A stretch of 10,011 bases of DNA from Acetobacteraceae bacterium (GTDB taxonomy: Bacteria; Pseudomonadota; Alphaproteobacteria; Acetobacterales; Acetobacteraceae), in contig CANJXD010000182.1 of the NCBI GenBank assembly GCA_947478535.1, positions 1 through 10,011 of the forward strand, in the 5' to 3' direction. Shown here piece after piece: positions 1-9,832 of this stretch. A program made the translations under genes and the position numbers. The stretch's first letter is position 1. Every line of letters begins with the position of its first letter. The notes beneath the pieces are model-generated. The model ran no database searches, was not told the origin of the DNA, and saw only the letters and a list, made by a program, of their open reading frames with translations.

Positions 1-515
1 ATTACGGCTCCACCGGGCCCGGCACGCTGTCCCATCTCGCGACGGAGGATCTGGCGGCGGCGGAACGATTCCAGGCCGTGCATGTCTCCTATCGCGGCGT
101 GGCGCCGGCGGTGCTGGACCTGATCGCGGGGCGGATCCAGATGTTCTTCGCGCCGCTCGCGGGTGTGGCGGGACAGGTGCGGGAAGGCACGTTGCGCGCC
201 TTGGCGGTGACGGGCCCGACCCGCATCCCGCAATTGCCGGATGTGCCGACGATGCGCGAGGCCGGGGCGCCGGGGGAGCCGGTGGTGGCCTGGATCGGCA
301 TGTTCGGCCCGGCCGGGATGCCGGCGGACCGCGTCGCGCGCCTGTCCGCGGAATGCCGCGTGGCGCTGCAGAACCCGGAACAGCGCCGCGTGCTGGAAGC
401 CGCGGGGTTCGAGCCGGTAGGCAGCAACCCCACCGATTTCGCGGCGTTGCAGAAGGCGGAGATCGAGCGCTGGGGCGGGCTGATCCGGCGCCTGGGGATC
501 AGGCCGGAAAGCTGA
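1..515 (+). CDS. Bug/TctC-family tripartite tricarboxylate transporter substrate-binding protein, 3' part only
   Basis: The gene enters from the left edge. The open frame starts at base 3 and gives 170 residues up to the TGA at 513-515. The fragment opens with YGSTGPGTLSHLATE and continues to VHVSYRGVAPAVLDLIAGRI and QLPDVPTMREAG. This is the usual C-terminal half of Bug receptors: a G-T-x-x-H-L stretch, then a H-V-x-Y-[RK]-G-x-x-P-A segment, then the P-D-[VI]-P-T-x-x-E-x-G block. Bug proteins are about 320 residues long with a signal peptide, so roughly 150 N-terminal residues lie outside the window. They are periplasmic solute receptors, often for carboxylates, and most are not encoded beside a TctAB membrane pair. 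None is seen here, so the ligand cannot be named. The family assignment is firm. Confidence 0.93.
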   Translation, partial: YGSTGPGTLSHLATEDLAAAERFQAVHVSYRGVAPAVLDLIAGRIQMFFAPLAGVAGQVREGTLRALAVTGPTRIPQLPDVPTMREAGAPGEPVVAWIGMFGPAGMPADRVARLSAECRVALQNPEQRRVLEAAGFEPVGSNPTDFAALQKAEIERWGGLIRRLGIRPES

Positions 516-2331: not shown

Positions 2332-3336
2332 TCACGCCGCCTCGGCGGGCTTTTCCCCGCGCGTCTTCCACAGGGAGTAGAAGACGCCGCCGGCGATCAG
2401 CGCCGCCGTCACGCCAAGCGAGATGGCGGGATCGACCTTCCCGAAGATCTGGTTCCAGAAGATCTTGGCGCCGATGAACACCAGCACCATCGCCAGCGCG
2501 AACTTCAGGTAGTGGAAGCGATGCACCATGGCGGCGAGCGCGAAGTACAGCGCCCGCAGGCCGAGGATCGCCATGATGTTCGCGGTGTAGACGATGAAGG
2601 TATCCGTGGTGATGGCGAAGATCGCCGGCACGCTGTCCACCGCGAAGACCAGATCGGCGATGTTGATGACGACGAGCGCCAGGAACAGCGGCGTCGCCCA
2701 GGCCACCATCTTCCCCGTCACCGGGTCCGGCTGGCGGATGAAGAACTTCTGGCCGTGCAGTTCCGGCGTGACGCGCATATGGCGTTGCACGAAGCGCACC
2801 ACGGGGTTCTTCGAGACATCGGCGTCGCCTTCCGGCACCACCAGCATCTTGACGCCGGTGGCGATCAGGAAGGCGCCGAAGATGTAGAGCACCCAGCTGT
2901 ATTCCTGGACCAGCGCAGCGCCGACCGCGATCATCACGCCGCGCAGCAGGATGACGGCGACGATGCCCCAGACCAGGGCGCGATACTGGTATTTCCGCGG
3001 GATGGCGAAGAAGCCGAAGATCAGGCTGATGACGAAGACGTTGTCGATCGACAGCGCCTTCTCGATGAAGAAGCCGGTGAAGAAGGTCAGGCCGGCATGC
3101 GTGCCGTCCGCCGTCTCGATCAGGTCGTTGTCATAGGCCCACCAGATGCCGGCACCGTAGAGAATGGCGAAGCCGATGTAGAAGGCGGACAGGCGCAGGG
3201 TTTCGGCAATGCCCATCTCCCGGTCCTGCTTGTTCAGCACGCCGAGGTCGAAGGCGAGCAGCAGGGCAACGATCGTGAAGAAGCCGCCCCACATCCAAAG
3301 GGGCTTGCCGATCCATTCGGCGAGAAGGAATTCCAT
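2332..3336 (-). CDS. TerC/Alx-family integral membrane protein (probable metal ion exporter)
   Basis: The 334-residue protein has about nine hydrophobic segments and the two TerC signature blocks. The first is EKALSIDNVFV (residues 92-102) and the second NIADLVFAVDSVPAIFAIT (from residue 225). The intramembrane acidic residues D30, E92, D98, D228 and D234 are present. The family includes E. coli Alx and Bacillus proteins linked to Mn2+ export and to metalation of secreted enzymes, and TerC of tellurite resistance gave the name. Length and motifs match Alx-like members, so manganese or other metal efflux is the best guess. I chose ATG at 3336 because GGAG lies 8 bases before it. A GTG seven codons upstream (3357) is in frame but sits in a strong hairpin. 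The gene stands alone on the minus strand, facing away from tatA. Confidence 0.93.
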   Translation of the reverse strand: MEFLLAEWIGKPLWMWGGFFTIVALLLAFDLGVLNKQDREMGIAETLRLSAFYIGFAILYGAGIWWAYDNDLIETADGTHAGLTFFTGFFIEKALSIDNVFVISLIFGFFAIPRKYQYRALVWGIVAVILLRGVMIAVGAALVQEYSWVLYIFGAFLIATGVKMLVVPEGDADVSKNPVVRFVQRHMRVTPELHGQKFFIRQPDPVTGKMVAWATPLFLALVVINIADLVFAVDSVPAIFAITTDTFIVYTANIMAILGLRALYFALAAMVHRFHYLKFALAMVLVFIGAKIFWNQIFGKVDPAISLGVTAALIAGGVFYSLWKTRGEKPAEAA

Positions 3337-3353
3337 GGCATTCGCTCCGGGCG

Positions 3354-3374
3354 CCACCCGCCGGGGGCGGGTGG
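3354..3374 (-). promoter_or_regulatory. 9-bp perfect hairpin just before the TerC-family ribosome binding site
   Basis: CCACCCGCC (3354-3362) and GGCGGGTGG (3366-3374) are perfect reverse complements with a 3-base loop. In the minus-strand message the hairpin ends 4 bases before the GGAG ribosome binding site and 17 bases before the ATG at 3336. It is too close to the gene to be only an upstream gene's terminator. It could control ribosome access or early termination. There is no T run after it. Confidence 0.5.
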
Positions 3375-3385
3375 ACAGGTTACGG

Positions 3386-3493
3386 GTGTCCCGGCGCGGA
3401 CACGATCCGGGCCGGACTCGTGTGGTCTCTCTGGCGATCCGACATCGCGGTGGGCGGCACGGGCCGGATGGCGCGCGCGCCCGGACGCCAGAG
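3386..3493 (-). promoter_or_regulatory. Structured leader of the TerC-family gene (two further inverted repeats)
   Basis: Two more inverted repeats lie in the same leader. GTGTCC (3386-3391) and GGACAC (3398-3403) form a 6-bp stem with a 6-base loop. CTCTGGCG (3429-3436) and CGCCAGAG (3486-3493) form an 8-bp stem around 49 GC-rich bases. With the 3354-3374 hairpin this makes a three-stem leader of about 140 bases. I looked for the conserved core of the yybP-ykoY manganese riboswitch, which controls some TerC-family genes, and did not find it. The call is a candidate cis-acting RNA of unknown class. Confidence 0.35.
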
Positions 3494-3508
3494 GGGCCCG
3501 GATCAGTG

Positions 3509-3539
3509 CCTACATGGCCATTAAATTACCGATAGTCAA
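3509..3539 (-). promoter_or_regulatory. AT-rich candidate promoter region for the TerC-family gene
   Basis: Around 3517-3548 the sequence is much richer in A/T than its surroundings. On the minus strand it holds TTGACT (3539-3534), a good -35 box, but only a poor -10 (TGTAGG, 19 bases on). TTTAAT (3525-3520) matches the -10 consensus in 5 of 6 positions but has no good -35 at 16-18 bases. A promoter is likely here; the exact boxes are not certain. Confidence 0.3.
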
Positions 3540-3737
3540 TATGAAGGCTGTGCTGCTTTCGGGGCAGGGAAGGGCTTCCCGGTCGCGGTGGCGCGAAATC
3601 GGTCATCCCCCCGTTGTGCCGGAATGACGGAAGCGCCATGTCTCGGTTTGCGCTGGGGATGGACGCGCACTAGTGTCCGCCCAGGTATTTGACCGGTCCG
3701 CCCTTGTGGTGGACCCCTATGGGATCGAGGCGTCGCA
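3540..3737. other. Intergenic region before tatA
   Basis: No convincing gene is present. It holds a 6-bp inverted repeat GGGAAG/CTTCCC (3567-3580) and a degenerate palindrome with GTCATCC (3602-3608) and GGAATGAC (3621-3628) as arms. The second has the look of the GTCAT...ATGAC palindromes common between genes in alphaproteobacteria. Two short palindromes, CACTAGTG (3668-3675) and GACCGGTC (3691-3698), lie nearer tatA. Confidence 0.4.
3648..3676 (+). promoter_or_regulatory. Candidate promoter for tatA
   Basis: TTGCGC (3648-3653) and TAGTGT (3671-3676) are 17 bases apart and match the -35 and -10 consensus only partly (4/6 and 3/6). The ribosome binding site is clearer: GAGG at 3727-3730, 7 bases before the ATG at 3738. 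Confidence 0.3.
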
Positions 3738-4010
3738 ATGGGTTCGTTCAGCATCTGGCATTGGCTGGTCGTGCTGCTGGTCATCCTGCTGCTTTTCGGC
3801 AGCGGCAAGATCAGCGGCCTGATGGGCGACCTGGCCACAGGCATCAAGTCCTTCAAGAAAAACATGAAGGACGATGAGAAGGACGCCGCCATGGCGGCCG
3901 ATCCGGCGGCGCAAACGCCGACGCAGCCGACTGGCTCGATCGCTGCTCCGGCTGGCGCCTCGGCGCAGCCGGGCGCGCAGGCGGCCAACCCGTCGCGCCC
4001 CGCCGCCTGA
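3738..4010 (+). CDS. tatA: Sec-independent protein translocase subunit TatA
   Basis: This 90-residue protein is a typical TatA. It has one N-terminal transmembrane helix (residues about 5-20), the F20-G21 hinge, then the amphipathic helix [20 protein letters not shown] (23-42). An acidic DDEKD stretch follows, then a disordered tail rich in Ala, Pro and Gln (about 50-90). TatA multimers in the inner membrane form the conducting part of the Tat pathway, which exports folded proteins bearing twin-arginine signals. The [16 protein letters not shown] segment and the Lys-rich amphipathic helix favour TatA over TatB. The start is supported by GAGG 7 bases upstream. No tatB or tatC is adjacent: the next plus-strand gene is a transporter, and a hairpin separates them. 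Confidence 0.95.
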
Positions 4011-4017
4011 TCGCTCC

Positions 4018-4038
4018 CCGGGCGGTATCCCCGCCCGG
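4018..4038 (+). terminator. Hairpin after tatA
   Basis: CCGGGCGG (4018-4025) and CCGCCCGG (4031-4038) form a perfect 8-bp stem with a 5-base loop, seven bases past the tatA stop. It is followed by TTGATG, not a T run. It is the likely end of the tatA transcript and separates it from the downstream operon. Confidence 0.5.
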
Positions 4039-4067
4039 TTGATGCGCGGCCTTCGCGGCCTTAGGGT
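4039..4067 (+). promoter_or_regulatory. Candidate promoter of the TRAP-mtnBDC operon with a tandem repeat spacer
   Basis: TTGATG (4039-4044) and TAGGGT (4062-4067) are exactly 17 bases apart, with matches of 4/6 and 3/6 including the key TA...T of the -10. Two perfect tandem copies of CGCGGCCTT (4045-4062) fill the spacer and run one base into the -10 box. The promoter call is from sequence only. Confidence 0.35.
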
Positions 4068-4105
4068 GCCCCTGCAAAGATGAGCTCCGCCCCATGGCGG
4101 GGCCG

Positions 4106-4135
4106 CGCGCCGACCCTTTCGCTGGGGCCGGCGCG
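4106..4135 (+). promoter_or_regulatory. GC-rich hairpin in the leader of the TRAP permease gene
   Basis: CGCGCCG (4106-4112) pairs with CGGCGCG (4129-4135). Inside it CCC (4114-4116) can pair with GGG (4124-4126), leaving a 7-base loop TTTCGCT. The element ends 18 bases before the chosen ATG (4154). It could affect translation, or be part of an N-terminal extension if the ATG at 4094 is the real start. Confidence 0.35.
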
Positions 4136-4153
4136 TCGTGTTTGGGGGCTTCC

Positions 4154-6181
4154 ATGACTGCACCGCCGGCAACGAACGGCCCCGGGGGCGCCACGTCTGG
4201 CGGGGCGGGCGACGGGATCACCGTGGCCCAGATCGACGACATGGAATTCGCCTCCGCTCGCCGGGAATTGGCGGGCTGGCAGGGCTACGCCTGGCGCGTG
4301 GCGGCCTGCGCCTTCGTCCTGTGGCATCTCTGGGTCCTGCTGGTCTCCCCGGTCGATCCCACCGTCTCCCGCGTCGTGCATGTGTTCCTGGGCGCGGCGC
4401 TGGGCTTTGCCCTGTTCGCGCCGCGTGCCGTGGGGGCGGGCGCGGTGGAAGACCGTGTGCCCTGGTATGACTGGCTGCTCATGGTGCCCTGCTTCCTGGT
4501 GCCGGCGCACTACATCCTTGACGCGGATGGGATCGAGATGCGGTCCTTCATGGGGCCGAACTGGCAGGATCTCGTGGCCGGCGGCGTCGGCATGCTGCTG
4601 GTGCTGGAATTCGCCCGGCGCACGGCGGGCTTCGTCATGCCGATGATCGCTGTCATCTTCATCGCCTATTGCTTCGTCGGCCCCTGGATGCCCGGCATCC
4701 TGTATCACCGCGGGATCGAGTGGGATCAGGCGGTCGTCGAGCTGTTCGGCAATAACGGCGTGCTCGGCACCATCATCCAGGTCTCGGCCAGCTTCATCAT
4801 CCTGTTCGTGACCTTCGCAGCCTTCCTCCAGACATCGAAGGCGGGCGATTATTTCAACGATTTCGCGCTGGCCCTGGTCGGCCGCGCGCGGGGCGGGCCG
4901 GCCAAGGTCACGGTCATCTCCGGCATCCTGTTCGGCACCATCTCCGGCAGCGCGGTGGCGAATGTCGTGGCTTCTGGCAGCTTCACCATCCCGATGATGC
5001 GCCGCGTCGGCTATGACCGTGCGACGGCCGCGGCGGTGGAGGCGACGAGCTCGACTGGCGGGCAGATCACGCCGCCGGTCATGGGCGCGGGCGCCTTCAT
5101 CATGGCGGAGGTGCTGGGCCGCGCCTATGCCGAGATCGCGCTGGCGGGCCTCATCCCCGCCTTGCTGTTCTACATCGCCAACTACATCCATTGCGACCTG
5201 AACGCCCGCAAGGCCGGCATCCGCGGCCTGCCGCGGGAAGAACTGCCGCGCTGGGCCGATCTCGGCCGCCGCGCCTATATGGCGGCGCCGCTGGTGTTGC
5301 TGGTGGGGATGCTGGTGCTTGGCTATTCGCCATTCCGCGCGGCCGCCATCGGCATCGCGGCGACCATCGGCATCATGGTCTTCACCGCGCTGACGCACCG
5401 CCTCGCCTTGCGCGGCGAAAGCGTCGTCAGCGCCGTCACCGGCGCGGTGCGGGAAACGCTGGTGGCGATCGAGGCGGCGCTGGCCGGCTCGGCGAAGGAG
5501 ACGATGCAGCTTATCGCCGTCTGCGCGGCGGCGGGCATCGTCGCCGGCGTCATCGGCCTGACCGGCGTTGGCGGGCGCTTCGCCACCATGCTGCTGGATA
5601 TCGCGGGCACATCGGCCTTGCTCGCCATGATCTTCACCATGGTGGTGGCGATCATCCTCGGCATGGGAGTACCGACGACGGCAGCCTATGCGATTGCCGC
5701 CGCCGTGGTGGCGCCGGGGCTGATCCGCATCGGCGTCGATCCGCTGGTGGCGCATATGTTCATCTTCTACTTCGCCATCCTGTCCGCCATCACGCCCCCG
5801 GTGGCGCTCGCTTCCTTCGCCGCGGCGTCGATGGCGGGGGCCGATATGTGGAAGACCAGCCTCATCGCGGTGAAGCTCGGGCTCGCCACCTTCATCGTGC
5901 CCTTCATGTTCTGGCTGTCCCCGGCGCTGCTGGCGCAGGGCGAACTTCCCGAAATTCTCCAGGCCTTCGTGACCGCCTCGATTGGCGTCTGGCTGCTGGC
6001 CTGTTCGACCGAAGGCTGGATGCTCAATGGGCGGCTGCCGCTGCTGCTGCGCCTGGTCGCCGCCACGGCCGGCATTCTGCTGATGGTGCCGGAGGCCTGG
6101 GCCGATATCGCTGGCCTTGCCCTCGGGGGGGCGCTGGTGCTTTGGCAGCGCAGGGCCTTCCCGGAGGAAGCTCCCGCATGA
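4154..6181 (+). CDS. TRAP transporter fused permease, 4TM/12TM (DctQ-DctM fusion)
   Basis: The 675-residue inner-membrane protein joins a DctQ-like small subunit (hydrophobic segments within about 47-155) to a DctM-like large subunit (about 160-675). DctM motifs are intact: GTISGSAVANVVASGSFTIP (261 on), SSTGGQITPPVMGAGAF (near 299-315), LGMGVPTTAAYAIAA (502-516) and TPPVALASFAAASMAGAD (547 on). Fused permeases of this type normally work with a periplasmic TAXI receptor and use an ion gradient to take up small organic acids. No receptor gene lies in the window. I prefer ATG 4154, with GGGGG five bases upstream. An in-frame ATG at 4094 would add 20 residues but lacks a ribosome binding site. 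The stop overlaps the mtnB start by 4 bases (ATGA), so the permease is probably tied to methionine salvage. Confidence 0.95.
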   Translation: MTAPPATNGPGGATSGGAGDGITVAQIDDMEFASARRELAGWQGYAWRVAACAFVLWHLWVLLVSPVDPTVSRVVHVFLGAALGFALFAPRAVGAGAVEDRVPWYDWLLMVPCFLVPAHYILDADGIEMRSFMGPNWQDLVAGGVGMLLVLEFARRTAGFVMPMIAVIFIAYCFVGPWMPGILYHRGIEWDQAVVELFGNNGVLGTIIQVSASFIILFVTFAAFLQTSKAGDYFNDFALALVGRARGGPAKVTVISGILFGTISGSAVANVVASGSFTIPMMRRVGYDRATAAAVEATSSTGGQITPPVMGAGAFIMAEVLGRAYAEIALAGLIPALLFYIANYIHCDLNARKAGIRGLPREELPRWADLGRRAYMAAPLVLLVGMLVLGYSPFRAAAIGIAATIGIMVFTALTHRLALRGESVVSAVTGAVRETLVAIEAALAGSAKETMQLIAVCAAAGIVAGVIGLTGVGGRFATMLLDIAGTSALLAMIFTMVVAIILGMGVPTTAAYAIAAAVVAPGLIRIGVDPLVAHMFIFYFAILSAITPPVALASFAAASMAGADMWKTSLIAVKLGLATFIVPFMFWLSPALLAQGELPEILQAFVTASIGVWLLACSTEGWMLNGRLPLLLRLVAATAGILLMVPEAWADIAGLALGGALVLWQRRAFPEEAPA

Positions 6182-6822
6182 TTCCAGAGAGCGTGGCCGA
6201 GGCGATCTGCGCCGCCGGGCGGCGGCTCGACCATCTCGGCCTGGTGCCGGCGACGGCAGGAAACTTCTCCATGCGCCTCGACGCCGCGCATTGCGTGGTC
6301 ACCATCTCCGGCCGCCACAAGGGGTTTCTCACGGCGGATGACGTGATGGTGGTGGACCTCGACGGGCGCGCCGTCACGCCGGGCAAGCGCAGCTCGGCGG
6401 AGACGCTGCTCCATTGCGGCATCTATCGCCGATTCGCCGAGGCGGGGGCGGTGCTGCACGGGCATTCCATCGCCAATACCGTGCTGTCGCGCGCCGCGCG
6501 GGGGGGCGTGACGCTGTCCGGCTATGAATTGTTGAAGGCATTTCCGGGTCTGCCCACCCATGATGCGGCCATCACCATCCCCGTAGTGCCGAACGACCAG
6601 GACATCCCCCGCATGCAGCGTGGGCTGGACCTGCTGTGGGATGGCATGGCAGATCAGGCCGAAGGCGCCCAGCCGGGGAGTGCCGGCGTGCCGCCGCCGG
6701 GGTATTTGATCCGCGGCCACGGTTCCTATGTCTGGGCCGCCGATATGCCGGGCGCGCTGATGCGCCTCGAAGCCCTGGAATTCATGCTGGCCTGCGAGAT
6801 GCGGGAAAGGACGATGCGATGA
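6178..6822 (+). CDS. mtnB: Methylthioribulose-1-phosphate dehydratase
   Basis: The 214-residue cytoplasmic enzyme belongs to the class II aldolase fold and removes water from 5-methylthioribulose-1-phosphate to give the 2,3-diketo-5-methylthiopentyl phosphate. Visible landmarks are TAGNFSMR (26-33), SGRHKG (44-49), the acid/base candidate E75 in SSAETLLH, zinc ligands H94 and H96 in HGHS, the PNDQDI block (138-143) and the third zinc ligand H181 in RGHGSYVW. Length is normal for MtnB. Class II aldolases of the DHAP shunt are related, but the directly following mtnD and mtnC make MtnB much the better call. The ATG overlaps the permease stop by 4 bases, and its own stop overlaps mtnD by 4 bases. 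Confidence 0.95.
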   Translation: MIPESVAEAICAAGRRLDHLGLVPATAGNFSMRLDAAHCVVTISGRHKGFLTADDVMVVDLDGRAVTPGKRSSAETLLHCGIYRRFAEAGAVLHGHSIANTVLSRAARGGVTLSGYELLKAFPGLPTHDAAITIPVVPNDQDIPRMQRGLDLLWDGMADQAEGAQPGSAGVPPPGYLIRGHGSYVWAADMPGALMRLEALEFMLACEMRERTMR

Positions 6823-7358
6823 GCCGCCTGACAGTCTGGGACGCCGCTACCAACGCGAAGCTCGTCTCCACCGAGGACCCCCAGGCGATCGCCGAGGCGC
6901 TGCGGCCTATCGGCGTGCGCTTCGAATGCTGGCCGCGCGCCGACCTGCCCGACGATGCGGATGCGGAGGCGATCCTCGCCGCCTATCGCCCGCGTCTCGA
7001 TGCCTTCCTCGCCGCCACCGGTGCCGGCACGGCCGATGTCATCAAGCTGACGCCGGACCATCCCATGAAGGATGCGATGCGCGCCAAATTCCTGTCCGAG
7101 CACACCCATACCGAGGATGAGGTCCGCTTCTTCCATGCCGGCACAGGGAATTTCGTGCTGCATGTCGATGGCAAGGTGTTCGACGCGGCCTGCGGGCCGG
7201 GGGATTTGATCAGCGTGCCGGCGAATGCGAAGCACTGGTTCGATGCGGGTGAGGCGCCAGCCTTCGCCGTCGTCCGGGTCTTCACCGACACCACGGGCTG
7301 GACGCCGCACTACACCGGCACGGACATGGCCGAGCGGTTCCCGGCCACCACGGCGTGA
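6819..7358 (+). CDS. mtnD: Acireductone dioxygenase (ARD/ARD')
   Basis: The 179-residue cupin metalloenzyme oxidises 1,2-dihydroxy-5-(methylthio)pent-1-en-3-one. With Fe2+ the products are 4-methylthio-2-oxobutyrate and formate. With Ni2+, as shown for Klebsiella ARD, the off-pathway products are methylthiopropionate, CO and formate. All four metal ligands are in place: H95, H97 and E101 in EHTHTEDEVRFF, and H139 in NAKHWF. They sit one residue from their Klebsiella positions. The GTGNFVLHVDGKVF segment (108-121) is the cupin core. Sequence cannot say which metal is used. The ATG lies in a 4-base overlap with the mtnB stop, and the stop overlaps the GTG start of mtnC. Confidence 0.96.
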   Translation: MSRLTVWDAATNAKLVSTEDPQAIAEALRPIGVRFECWPRADLPDDADAEAILAAYRPRLDAFLAATGAGTADVIKLTPDHPMKDAMRAKFLSEHTHTEDEVRFFHAGTGNFVLHVDGKVFDAACGPGDLISVPANAKHWFDAGEAPAFAVVRVFTDTTGWTPHYTGTDMAERFPATTA

Positions 7359-8047
7359 GCCGGGACGGCCCCATCCGCCTCGTCCTGACCGACATCGAGG
7401 GCACGACCAGCGCCATCGCCTTCGTGAAGGACACGCTGTTTCCCTTCGCGGAGCAGGCGCTGGAAGGTTTTCTCGAGTCGCGGGGGGAGGACCCCGAGGT
7501 CGCCGCCATTCTTGCGGAGGTACCCGGGCCAGACCGGGTCGCCACGCTGCGCGGCTGGATGGCGGCGGATGCGAAAGTGACGGCGCTGAAATCCCTCCAG
7601 GGGATGATCTGGGATGCGGGCTTCCGGGATGGCCGGCTGCGCGGGCATCTCTGGCCGGATGTCGCTTCCTGCCTGCGCGCCTGGCAAGCGGGGGGGGTGG
7701 GGCTCGCGGTCTATTCCTCGGGCTCCATCGGGGCACAGAAGCTGCTGTTCGGGCATTCCGAGGCGGGGGATCTGCTCGGGCTGTTTTCCGGGTTTTTCGA
7801 CACCACCATCGGCCACAAGCGGCAAGCCGCCTCCTACGCCGCCATCGCCACCGCGCTGGGGTTGGCGCCGGCGGACATCCTGTTCCTGTCCGATGTGGCA
7901 GAGGAGTTGGACGCGGCGCGGGATCAGGGCCTCGCCACCTGCCAATTGGTCCGCCCAGGGGATGGCACGCTGCCCTGCGGCCGGCATCCCGAGGCCGCTG
8001 ATTTCCCCGCCGTCAGCCGGCTTTTCAACTTGCCTCTCCCGGCGTGA
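7355..8047 (+). CDS. mtnC: Enolase-phosphatase E1 (2,3-diketo-5-methylthiopentyl-1-phosphate enolase/phosphatase)
   Basis: The 230-residue HAD-superfamily enzyme enolises the MtnB product and then dephosphorylates it to the acireductone used by MtnD. Motif I is LTDIEGTT (D13 and E15, typical of E1 enzymes instead of DxD), motif II is YSSGS (120-124), the motif III lysine is K155 in IGHKR, and motif IV is SDVAEELDAA (179-188). The GTG start at 7355 overlaps the mtnD stop by 4 bases (GTGA). No Shine-Dalgarno is evident, so translation probably depends on ribosomes finishing mtnD. The gene contains a run of eight G (7690-7697). It is the last gene of the coupled unit. Confidence 0.95.
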   Translation: MSRDGPIRLVLTDIEGTTSAIAFVKDTLFPFAEQALEGFLESRGEDPEVAAILAEVPGPDRVATLRGWMAADAKVTALKSLQGMIWDAGFRDGRLRGHLWPDVASCLRAWQAGGVGLAVYSSGSIGAQKLLFGHSEAGDLLGLFSGFFDTTIGHKRQAASYAAIATALGLAPADILFLSDVAEELDAARDQGLATCQLVRPGDGTLPCGRHPEAADFPAVSRLFNLPLPA

Positions 8048-8048
8048 C

Positions 8049-8068
8049 AGCCCCCCCGTCGGCGGGCT
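8049..8068 (+). terminator. Weak hairpin after mtnC
   Basis: AGCCC (8049-8053) and GGGCT (8064-8068) can form a 5-bp stem just past the mtnC stop, with a little extra pairing inside the loop. There is no T run. It may only attenuate transcription into corA. Confidence 0.25.
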
Positions 8069-8103
8069 AGAGGCATCCTGTTCCCGAGGCGGGAGAGCGC
8101 GAC

Positions 8104-9087
8104 ATGATGACCACCTATGCCGTCGCCGATGGCCGTCTGTCGGTGCGCGATGGGCTGTTGCCTCCCGAGGCACTGGGTTCGGCCGTGTGGATCGACATGC
8201 TGAACCCGACGCCGGAGGAAGGCCGCTCCGTCCAGGCGGCGCTGCGCCTCGAGATTCCGACGCGCGAGGAAATGCAGGAGATCGAAAGCTCCTCCCGTCT
8301 GTATCGGGAGGAGGAGGCGCTCTTCCTCACCGCCAATTTTCTCTATGGCGTGGAGGGCGGCGAATACGGATCGACGCCGATCACCTTCGTGCTGTCGAAC
8401 AACGCGCTGGTGACGGTGCGCTACGCCACGCCCAAGGCCTTCGCCGTCTTCGCACTGCGCTGCCAGCGGACACCGGTGCTGGTGGCGACGCCGGATGCGG
8501 TGATGCTGCATCTGTTCGAACAGATCGTCGATCGGCTGGCGGATATCCTGGAACGAGTCGGCAGCGACATGGACCGCGCCTCCTCCGCCTCCTTCCGCTC
8601 CGCGCGCAGCAAGGTGAAGGCGAGCGCGCGTGACCACGATCTGCGGGAAGTGCTGATCACGCTCGGCCAGGTGGGCGAAGTGACGACCCGGGCGAATGAG
8701 ACGCTGCTCGGCCTGACGCGCATCCTCAGCTTCGTTGGCGCCGAGAAGGCGATGGCGGTGCGGAAGGAAAACCAGAACCTGCTGAAGACACTTGTGCGAG
8801 ACGTTCGCAGCCTGGTGGATCACGCCGGCTTCCTGAATGGCAAGGCGAACTTCCTGCTCGATGCCGTGCTGGGCATCCTGAATGTCGAGCAGAATGCCAT
8901 CATCAAGACCTTCACCGTGGCCTCCGTCGCCCTGATGCCGCCGACGCTGATCGCCAGCATCTACGGCATGAATTTTCGGCACATGCCCGAACTTGATTCG
9001 ACCTTCGGCTATCCGGCGGCGCTGCTGCTGATGGTGTTCTCCGCCGCGCTGCCGATCATCTACTTCAAGCGGAAGGGCTGGCTCTGA
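8104..9087 (+). CDS. corA: CorA-family magnesium/divalent cation transporter
   Basis: The 327-residue protein has the CorA layout: a large cytoplasmic N-terminal domain (1 to about 265) with long helices, then two transmembrane helices at about 268-287 and 303-321. Between them is the selectivity signature G288-M289-N290 in YGMNF, followed by MPEL (294-297) in the periplasmic loop. The C-terminus is basic (KRKGWL), as expected on the cytoplasmic side. CorA forms a homopentameric Mg2+ channel, and some members also carry Co2+ or Ni2+. GGGAG at 8091-8095 lies 8 bases before the ATG at 8104, which favours this start over the ATG at 8107. It lies 56 bases after mtnC and may be read through from that operon or have its own promoter. 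Confidence 0.95.
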   Translation: MMTTYAVADGRLSVRDGLLPPEALGSAVWIDMLNPTPEEGRSVQAALRLEIPTREEMQEIESSSRLYREEEALFLTANFLYGVEGGEYGSTPITFVLSNNALVTVRYATPKAFAVFALRCQRTPVLVATPDAVMLHLFEQIVDRLADILERVGSDMDRASSASFRSARSKVKASARDHDLREVLITLGQVGEVTTRANETLLGLTRILSFVGAEKAMAVRKENQNLLKTLVRDVRSLVDHAGFLNGKANFLLDAVLGILNVEQNAIIKTFTVASVALMPPTLIASIYGMNFRHMPELDSTFGYPAALLLMVFSAALPIIYFKRKGWL

Positions 9088-9118: not shown

Positions 9119-9832
9119 ATGACGGGCTTCGCCCCCGCCGTGTTCGCCTCTGCTGTGCTCGCCCCCGCGCTGCTGCTGACCGTGGGCGCCGCCCTGGCGC
9201 AACCCGCCTGCCCAGCGCGCGGCAACCCAGCCGTCTCCGTCACGCTGCATGACCCGGACCCGCGCCTGGCATCCCCCCTTCCGGCGGCGCAACTGCGCCA
9301 GATGGCGGATGGGGAAGAGGCGGAGGTCGGCCCGCCGCTGCACCATCTGGGCCTGACGCTGTCCCGCGTCGAATGGCGCAGCGACATCACCGTGCGCAGC
9401 CAGAGCGGGGGTGGGGGTGGGCAGGTCTGCGCCGTGCCGACCGAGATCCGCCTGAGCCTGCTGCATGCCGAACACACCATCCGCCTGGCGCGGGAGATCC
9501 CCCGCGCTGGCTGCCTGGCCGGGGAGGTGCTGGCCCATGAACGCCGCCATGCCGAGGTCAACCGCCGCACGCTGCGGGAGGCCGCCGAGGGGCTGCGCGC
9601 CGCCGCCCGCGCCTGGGCATCCCGTGCCGAGGGCCGCGCGCGGGATGCGGGGGCCGCGGCGCTGGTGATGCAGGATGACCTGGCGGCCGCGGTGGAGCCG
9701 GTGTTGGAACGGCTGCGCGTGGCGCGCGCCGCGGCGCATGCGGCGATCGATACGCCGGAGGAATACCGCCGGCTCGGCCGGGTCTGCCCGGGGGACCAGC
9801 GGCGCATCCGGGCGATCTTCGGCGGGCATTGA
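9119..9832 (+). CDS. Predicted exported protein with an HExxH motif, possible zinc peptidase-like (unassigned)
   Basis: The 237-residue protein begins with a likely Sec signal peptide: a hydrophobic stretch at 5-26 and an ALA-Q cleavage site near 27/28. The mature part has four cysteines (C31, C104, C132, C223), enough for two disulfides in the periplasm. HERRH (140-144) in EVLAHERRHAEVNRRTL fits the HExxH zincin pattern and lies in a predicted helix, followed by a long Ala/Arg-rich helical region (about 145-208). The motif and size recall the DUF922 group of putative secreted zinc proteases, but I cannot assign it firmly. A Gly5 tract (97-101) coded by a G-rich run may be a flexible linker. 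It starts 31 bases after corA with no clear ribosome binding site, so it may be co-transcribed. Confidence 0.75.
   Translation: MTGFAPAVFASAVLAPALLLTVGAALAQPACPARGNPAVSVTLHDPDPRLASPLPAAQLRQMADGEEAEVGPPLHHLGLTLSRVEWRSDITVRSQSGGGGGQVCAVPTEIRLSLLHAEHTIRLAREIPRAGCLAGEVLAHERRHAEVNRRTLREAAEGLRAAARAWASRAEGRARDAGAAALVMQDDLAAAVEPVLERLRVARAAAHAAIDTPEEYRRLGRVCPGDQRRIRAIFGGH

Follow-up and report, generated by a model that had tools for sequence, protein, structure and literature searches.

Transporters of the TAXI-TRAP family rely on a periplasmic TAXI protein that catches a small carboxylate and on a permease that imports it on an ion gradient. We analyzed a 10,011-base stretch of DNA from an Acetobacteraceae bacterium (contig CANJXD010000182.1; hereafter the window), in which the gene for a fused TRAP permease lies between tatA and the methionine salvage genes mtnB, mtnD and mtnC and overlaps the start of mtnB. 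A sequence-only reading of the window had taken this coupling as a sign that the permease takes up an outside methylthio compound for the salvage enzymes. Comparison with related genomes points elsewhere. With a probability of roughly 0.78, the permease is part of an ordinary split TAXI-TRAP carboxylate transporter in an unusual, long-lived position, co-expressed with methionine salvage and not dedicated to it.

Described systems resemble this arrangement in part, as far as the excerpts of their reports go. TAXI-TRAP systems (TIGR02123 together with TIGR02122) such as VcGluP-VcGluQM (PMC11574862) share the fused membrane component and the TAXI family, and among distant relatives of the window permease the TAXI gene stands directly before the permease gene, on the same strand, in 39 of 42 loci (L035-L079 without L068, L069 and L074). 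In contrast, where the permease occupies the slot behind tatA, as in the window, all 18 genomes examined (G001-G018) have the permease and receptor genes on separate contigs, and five of six residues of the glutamate site differ. The mtnXYZ-mtnKABCDE cluster (PMC4239095) likewise groups transporter genes with salvage genes, but it takes up methylthioribose and includes mtnK, whereas here the transporter is a TRAP permease and MtnK is found in none of 25 relatives. In the Bordetella TAXI-GltS system (PMC12344293), a TAXI-system gene also overlaps its neighbor, and translational coupling is inferred from the overlap; there the receptor gene overlaps the transporter gene of one and the same system, whereas here the permease gene overlaps enzyme genes and the receptor gene is located away.

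The permease accompanies a TAXI receptor

Across the family, the permease tracks the TAXI receptor and not mtnC. In a survey of 150 Acetobacteraceae genomes, scoring at most seven candidates per genome for the permease and at most 14 for TAXI, the permease was found in 13 genomes, and all 13 carry a TAXI relative. A TAXI orthologue of at least 63% identity is present in 12 of them and in none of the other 137 (Fisher p 7.5e-17; the genomes share ancestry, and this and the following p values are descriptive only). The thirteenth genome, G101, harbors a 48% TAXI gene adjoining a 56% permease, and weaker TAXI relatives (43-49%) occur in four genomes that lack the permease. mtnC, by comparison, is called in 8 of the 13 permease genomes, or in 9 when the contig-cut G074 is counted, vs. 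80 of the 137 others (p 1.0 and 0.56). Among the nine genomes with both permease and mtnC, the genes form one block in six (G001, G003, G008, G013, G062 and G074) and lie apart in three (G023, G057 and G068). A salvage importer, as proposed by the sequence-only reading, is not what this co-occurrence with the receptor, and not with mtnC, would suggest.

Each of the 25 genomes of close relatives encodes one close orthologue of the window permease, and all 25 also encode the TAXI orthologue (TIGR02122 199.7 bits vs. a cut-off of 84.35), adjacent to the permease in six. From these partner receptors of its relatives, we infer that the window permease is of the TAXI type; the term fused is based on its match to TIGR02123. 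TAXI genes are also found without a permease beside them. In 19 such neighborhoods (L116-L134), one gene family, a chemotaxis-type receptor in L119, recurs in 12, and semialdehyde dehydrogenase genes are often near, domains having been scanned in L119 only.

An added gene in an old gene order

Acetobacteraceae usually have tatA immediately ahead of the mtn genes, and the permease is an added gene between them. mtnC is present in 88 of the 150 genomes, 80 of which lack the permease, and the mtn neighborhoods were fetched for 63 of these 80. In 59 of the 63, the closest sought gene ahead of the mtn genes is tatA, at a distance of 22-422 bases; it precedes mtnB in 55, mtnD in three and mtnC in one, and in five of the 59 one or two of the mtn genes gave no match. 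Three of the four neighborhoods without tatA are cut by contig ends (L182, L183 and L198), and the fourth, L208, is not. TRAP or TAXI matches were found in none of the 63. In a sample of the whole class, mtnC is rare (11 of 289 genomes), and the ten sampled mtnC neighborhoods besides that of G001 contain neither tatA, TRAP nor TAXI.

Permease and mtn genes come and go separately, in both directions. The order tatA-permease-CorA, with no mtnB anywhere in the genome, is displayed by two Elioraea genomes (G017 and G018, loci L033 and L034) and by G069; in G119, which also has no mtnB, the contig stops after tatA-permease. In the other direction, all seven genomes G019-G025 (Neoroseomonas terrae, N. 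lacus, Roseococcus and Sabulicella) show tatA-mtnB-mtnD-mtnC-CorA with no permease in the slot. In six of these seven, the permease sits beside its own TAXI gene; in G023, the orthologous TAXI gene lies ~770 kb from the permease, and a different TAXI gene follows the permease. In G062, whose slot permease is the most divergent (54-55% identity), permease and mtnB are separated by an ExoD-type gene.

To judge how far the permease-mtnB pairing extends, we considered the best 79 distinct loci of 502 relatives from a permease scan of species genomes. mtnB adjoins the permease in 19 of the 79, all Acetobacteraceae-type by title: Falsiroseomonas, Roseomonas, Neoroseomonas (alkaliterrae), Humitalea and Pseudoroseomonas, plus further metagenome-assembled genomes (MAGs). 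A survey of this kind had been suggested by the sequence-only reading, and the link does hold across five named genera and is not a single-strain peculiarity. On contigs that are long enough, the usual order is terC, tatA, permease, mtnB, mtnD, mtnC, CorA. Of the 19 mtn loci, 16 have CorA downstream, and in the two Elioraea loci CorA is the first of the sought genes to follow the permease. Near the permeases of the 45 loci L035-L079, tblastn returned no match to an mtn gene. Contig ends fall inside mtn genes in L005 and L031, and some loci are too short to judge, such as L022, which stops 63 bases past the permease match. Since the simple gene caller missed or mislabeled several mtn and tatA genes, the mtn counts rest on tblastn and profile searches; neighbor genes named from the gene caller alone are less sure.

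In a quick permease tree (12 of 45 inner branches below 80; G062 left out), a 15-row clade located away from mtn genes nests among the slot permeases (SH-aLRT 99), and Elioraea branches first. The slot between tatA and mtnB thus looks older than the TAXI-adjacent placing of the permease in this group, the clade being TAXI-adjacent by script label: L022 ends before any TAXI gene, L025 shows no TAXI gene, and the one in L017 and L019 is different. The permease of L074, a MAG titled Pararhodobacter, is 64% identical and falls within the slot permeases, and a gene of the enolase superfamily lies upstream of it; either transfer or a binning error may account for this.

We hypothesize the following course. 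In an ancestor of Elioraea and the Roseomonas group, a permease gene would have been placed between tatA and mtnB of the old tatA-mtnBDC order, and its end would have come to overlap the mtnB start, with the result that a single message probably encodes all four proteins. The permease would form the membrane part of a TAXI-TRAP transporter, with the receptor gene elsewhere in the genome. MtnB, MtnD and MtnC would recycle internally made methylthioadenosine, together with MtnP and MtnA encoded elsewhere.

Gene junctions

Overlaps of four bases are frequent within bacterial operons. In the window, all three junctions are 4-base start/stop overlaps (permease-mtnB ATGA, mtnB-mtnD ATGA and mtnD-mtnC GTGA), and the sequence-only reading had these, the coordinates and the strand exactly right. 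Its gene identities are borne out as well, by TIGR02123, TIGR03328 and TIGR01691 above their cut-offs and, for mtnD, by Pfam ARD and the solved structure 1zrr. Over the window and 19 related loci, the permease-mtnB junction is -4 in 16 of 20, -1 in L006 and +3 to +5 in L024, L028 and L030, with a script that favors overlapping starts where more than one start is possible; the overlap is beyond chance. The mtnB-mtnD junction is -4 in all 19 readable permease-bearing loci and also in six of seven relatives with a permease-less mtnBDC (L135-L141), and hence this overlap is not permease-specific. At the mtnD-mtnC junction, -4 is seen in 11 of 19 loci.

The four proteins probably come from one message and are co-translated. 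The sequence-only reading had stated outright that permease and enzymes are made together; the overlaps stand, and co-translation is probable on their account. An Rfam scan of the window for a methionine riboswitch ahead of the four-gene unit gave only a terC element. A consensus scan of positions 3500-8300 gave no promoter of the permease's own, a result that is uninformative, as only 0.4 matches are expected by chance.

Salvage genes and the importer question

Among the close genomes, mtnA is present in 25 of 25 and mtnP in 31 of 32 (lacking only in the MAG G074), so that internal methylthioadenosine can be recycled without any importer. The methylthioribose kinase MtnK (TIGR01767) was found in none of the 25 relatives' genomes, with E. 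coli and B. subtilis positive as controls. Use of free methylthioribose would require MtnK, and import of methylthioribose is unlikely with the kinase absent from 25 of 25 genomes. 4-Methylthio-2-oxobutyrate is the product of MtnD; if imported, it would therefore bypass the three coupled enzymes. Uptake of an outside methylthio compound, as put forward by the sequence-only reading, agrees poorly with a permease that is kept without mtnB, with 80 of 88 mtnC genomes that do without the permease, and with the lack of MtnK.

The genomes G017, G018, G069 and G119 keep mtnP but have no mtnB; mtnA is present in G017 and G018, the two tested. A different fate of methylthioribulose phosphate is therefore expected in these four.

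The sequence-only reading had further held that methionine salvage has no dedicated importer at this step. This is too strong: excerpts of the literature name the methylthioribose uptake genes mtnXYZ alongside mtnKABCDE (PMC4239095) and mention methylthioribose transporters (PMC6302742). In the open-access literature of PubMed Central, no paper was found that joins a TRAP transporter with acireductone, or Roseomonas with TRAP transporter and TAXI; methionine salvage, TRAP transporter and mtnB occurred together only in a Pseudomonas proteome study.

Apparent exchange of the permease in place

Displacement of genes in situ within operons is a known concept. The loci L024, L026 and L030 group with other Falsiroseomonas/Roseomonas by mtnBDC plus CorA and also by TAXI; by permease they form a separate clade. 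Constraining the permease tree to unite L011 and L026 costs 226.5 log units (approximately unbiased test, p 1e-60), and uniting L006, L007, L024 and L030 costs 229.2 log units (p 5e-5), the groups having been picked after the trees were seen. Compared in segments of 120 bases, L011 and L026 are 82-97% alike in mtnB and mtnD vs. 49-88% inside the permease; in tatA, the first two segments are 92-95% alike and the last 64%. A pattern that looks like exchange of the permease alone is displayed by the pairs L011/L026, L006/L030 and L009/L027, with most of tatA, mtnBDC, CorA and TAXI vertical.

It looks as if the permease gene alone was exchanged in place in some lineages, an apparent swap of a single permease gene within an otherwise vertical gene block. 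As in known cases of in situ displacement, a distant homologue would have replaced one gene of a kept order while the flanks stayed. The pattern of L011 and L026 fits such a replacement in situ and equally an old tandem pair whose members were lost differentially.

Possible ligands

VcGluP (8S4J) is a glutamate TAXI receptor, six site residues of which were mutated; according to the excerpts of the report, loss of Q93 cost 990-fold (PMC11574862). In the TAXI protein of the relative L008, only Y45 of these six is kept, and S75, Q93, E125, Y200 and M201 are replaced by P, T, T, F and A, as mapped by one low-identity pairwise sequence alignment in which the numbering was checked (13 of 13 named VcGluP residues fall on the right letter). 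The substrate is probably not glutamate, and glutamate import by analogy with VcGluP is disfavored, with five of the six tested residues different.

Scans of three distant TAXI-TRAP units (Reyranella MAG L054, Planococcus L073 and Peptococcaceae MAG L071) revealed a D-2-hydroxyacid dehydrogenase gene after the permease in each. L119 has CoA-transferase genes close to its TAXI gene, and such genes also occur in L073. These neighbors point weakly to a 2-oxo or 2-hydroxy acid, and we offer such a substrate as a guess.

Weighing the explanations

Several observations weigh against the view of an ordinary split transporter in an unusual position. The correlation between TAXI and permease in pairwise distance is only moderate (r 0.47, 22 genomes), no better than that between permease and CorA (0.50), and thus reveals no special TAXI-permease co-evolution; the pairing of permease and TAXI in mtn genomes is deduced from co-occurrence and from relatives. 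The overlap has persisted in 16 of 20 loci, and even where the permease was exchanged the slot is still occupied, which could reflect selection for co-expression. Moreover, two further lineages have TAXI-TRAP genes close to mtnA, with 4.6-4.7 kb between starts in G022 (L144) and G025, and at 1.1 kb in convergent orientation in Elioraea G017 and G018 (L145 and L146), the latter being a different TAXI-TRAP of 39-40% identity.

The conserved overlap, spread over five named genera, and the independent closeness to mtnA in these two lineages would suit a permease that imports an outside methylthio compound for MtnB, MtnD and MtnC, the overlap coupling uptake to use. We consider this quite improbable, as the permease shows no co-occurrence with mtnC (8-9 of 13 vs. 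80 of 137) and is kept where mtnB is absent, MtnK is missing from all 25 genomes, the 45 loci L035-L079 hold no mtn gene, the ten class-sample mtnC neighborhoods hold no TRAP or TAXI, and the Elioraea unit near mtnA is the other, convergent TAXI-TRAP. It is likewise doubtful that the split TAXI-TRAP imports a methylthio acid (e.g., 4-methylthio-2-oxobutyrate or the corresponding 2-hydroxy acid) or a precursor, which would make it the first TRAP-type sulfur-salvage importer, coupled to its enzymes and with a permease exchangeable in place; a binding site without the glutamate ligands of VcGluP stays compatible with a methylthio acid. In this equally doubtful joint reading, such an importer would be marked by its recurrent position near mtnBDC and, in two other lineages, near mtnA. 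Alternatively, the permease might indirectly aid or balance salvage metabolism, for example by supplying the final transamination with 2-oxoacids or amino-group donors; co-expression would then be selected although no methylthio compound is transported. The long-lived slot with its permease exchanged in place and the 2-hydroxyacid dehydrogenase neighbors in distant relatives agree with such a benefit, but it is unlikely given that permease and mtn genes lie apart, with neither lost, in the seven genomes of Roseococcus, Sabulicella and Neoroseomonas, and that an ExoD-type gene stands between permease and mtnB in G062.

If the permease indeed belongs to an ordinary split TAXI-TRAP transporter, the locus is a warning case. 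A strict, conserved 4-base overlap of transporter and enzyme genes would usually be read as proof that they share a substrate; family-wide gene content instead ties this transporter to a receptor encoded elsewhere. The case also singles out this TAXI receptor as the protein to use in a binding assay.

Features of the window

The window has a G+C content of 68%, and the genes from tatA to the CorA-type transporter all lie on the + strand (Table 1). An NCBIfam model scan gave no match for mtnD.

Table 1. Genes and elements annotated in the window, with the supporting matches
Feature	Position	Strand	Evidence
TctC-type tricarboxylate receptor gene, C-terminal part	3-515	+	Pfam TctC
TerC/Alx gene	2332-3357	-	
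terC RNA element	3430-3509	-	RF03067 41.6 bits, gathering 39.9
tatA	3738..4010	+	TIGR01411 71 bits vs. cut-off 53.9
Fused TRAP permease, 675 amino acids	4154..6181	+	TIGR02123 TRAP_fused 626.3 bits vs. cut-off 320.65, profile 6-610 of 615
mtnB, methylthioribulose-1-phosphate dehydratase	6178..6822	+	TIGR03328 181.2 bits vs. cut-off 137.05
mtnD, acireductone dioxygenase	6819..7358	+	Pfam ARD 103.7 bits vs. 27, profile 11-157 of 157; solved structure 1zrr E 3.4e-43
mtnC, acireductone synthase (enolase-phosphatase), GTG start	7355..8047	+	TIGR01691 258.4 bits vs. cut-off 128.1
CorA-type transporter	8104..9087	+	Pfam CorA 170.9 bits; NCBIfam corA 200.4 bits, slightly below cut-off 200.75
237-amino-acid protein	9119-9832	+	HERRH motif by eye

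The terC RNA element lies directly upstream of the TerC/Alx gene. The 237-amino-acid protein at the far end gave no match in Pfam and NCBIfam scans; its relatives follow CorA in several mtn loci. At the opposite edge, the TctC-type receptor gene enters from outside the window, and TctC-type genes are again present upstream in several relatives.

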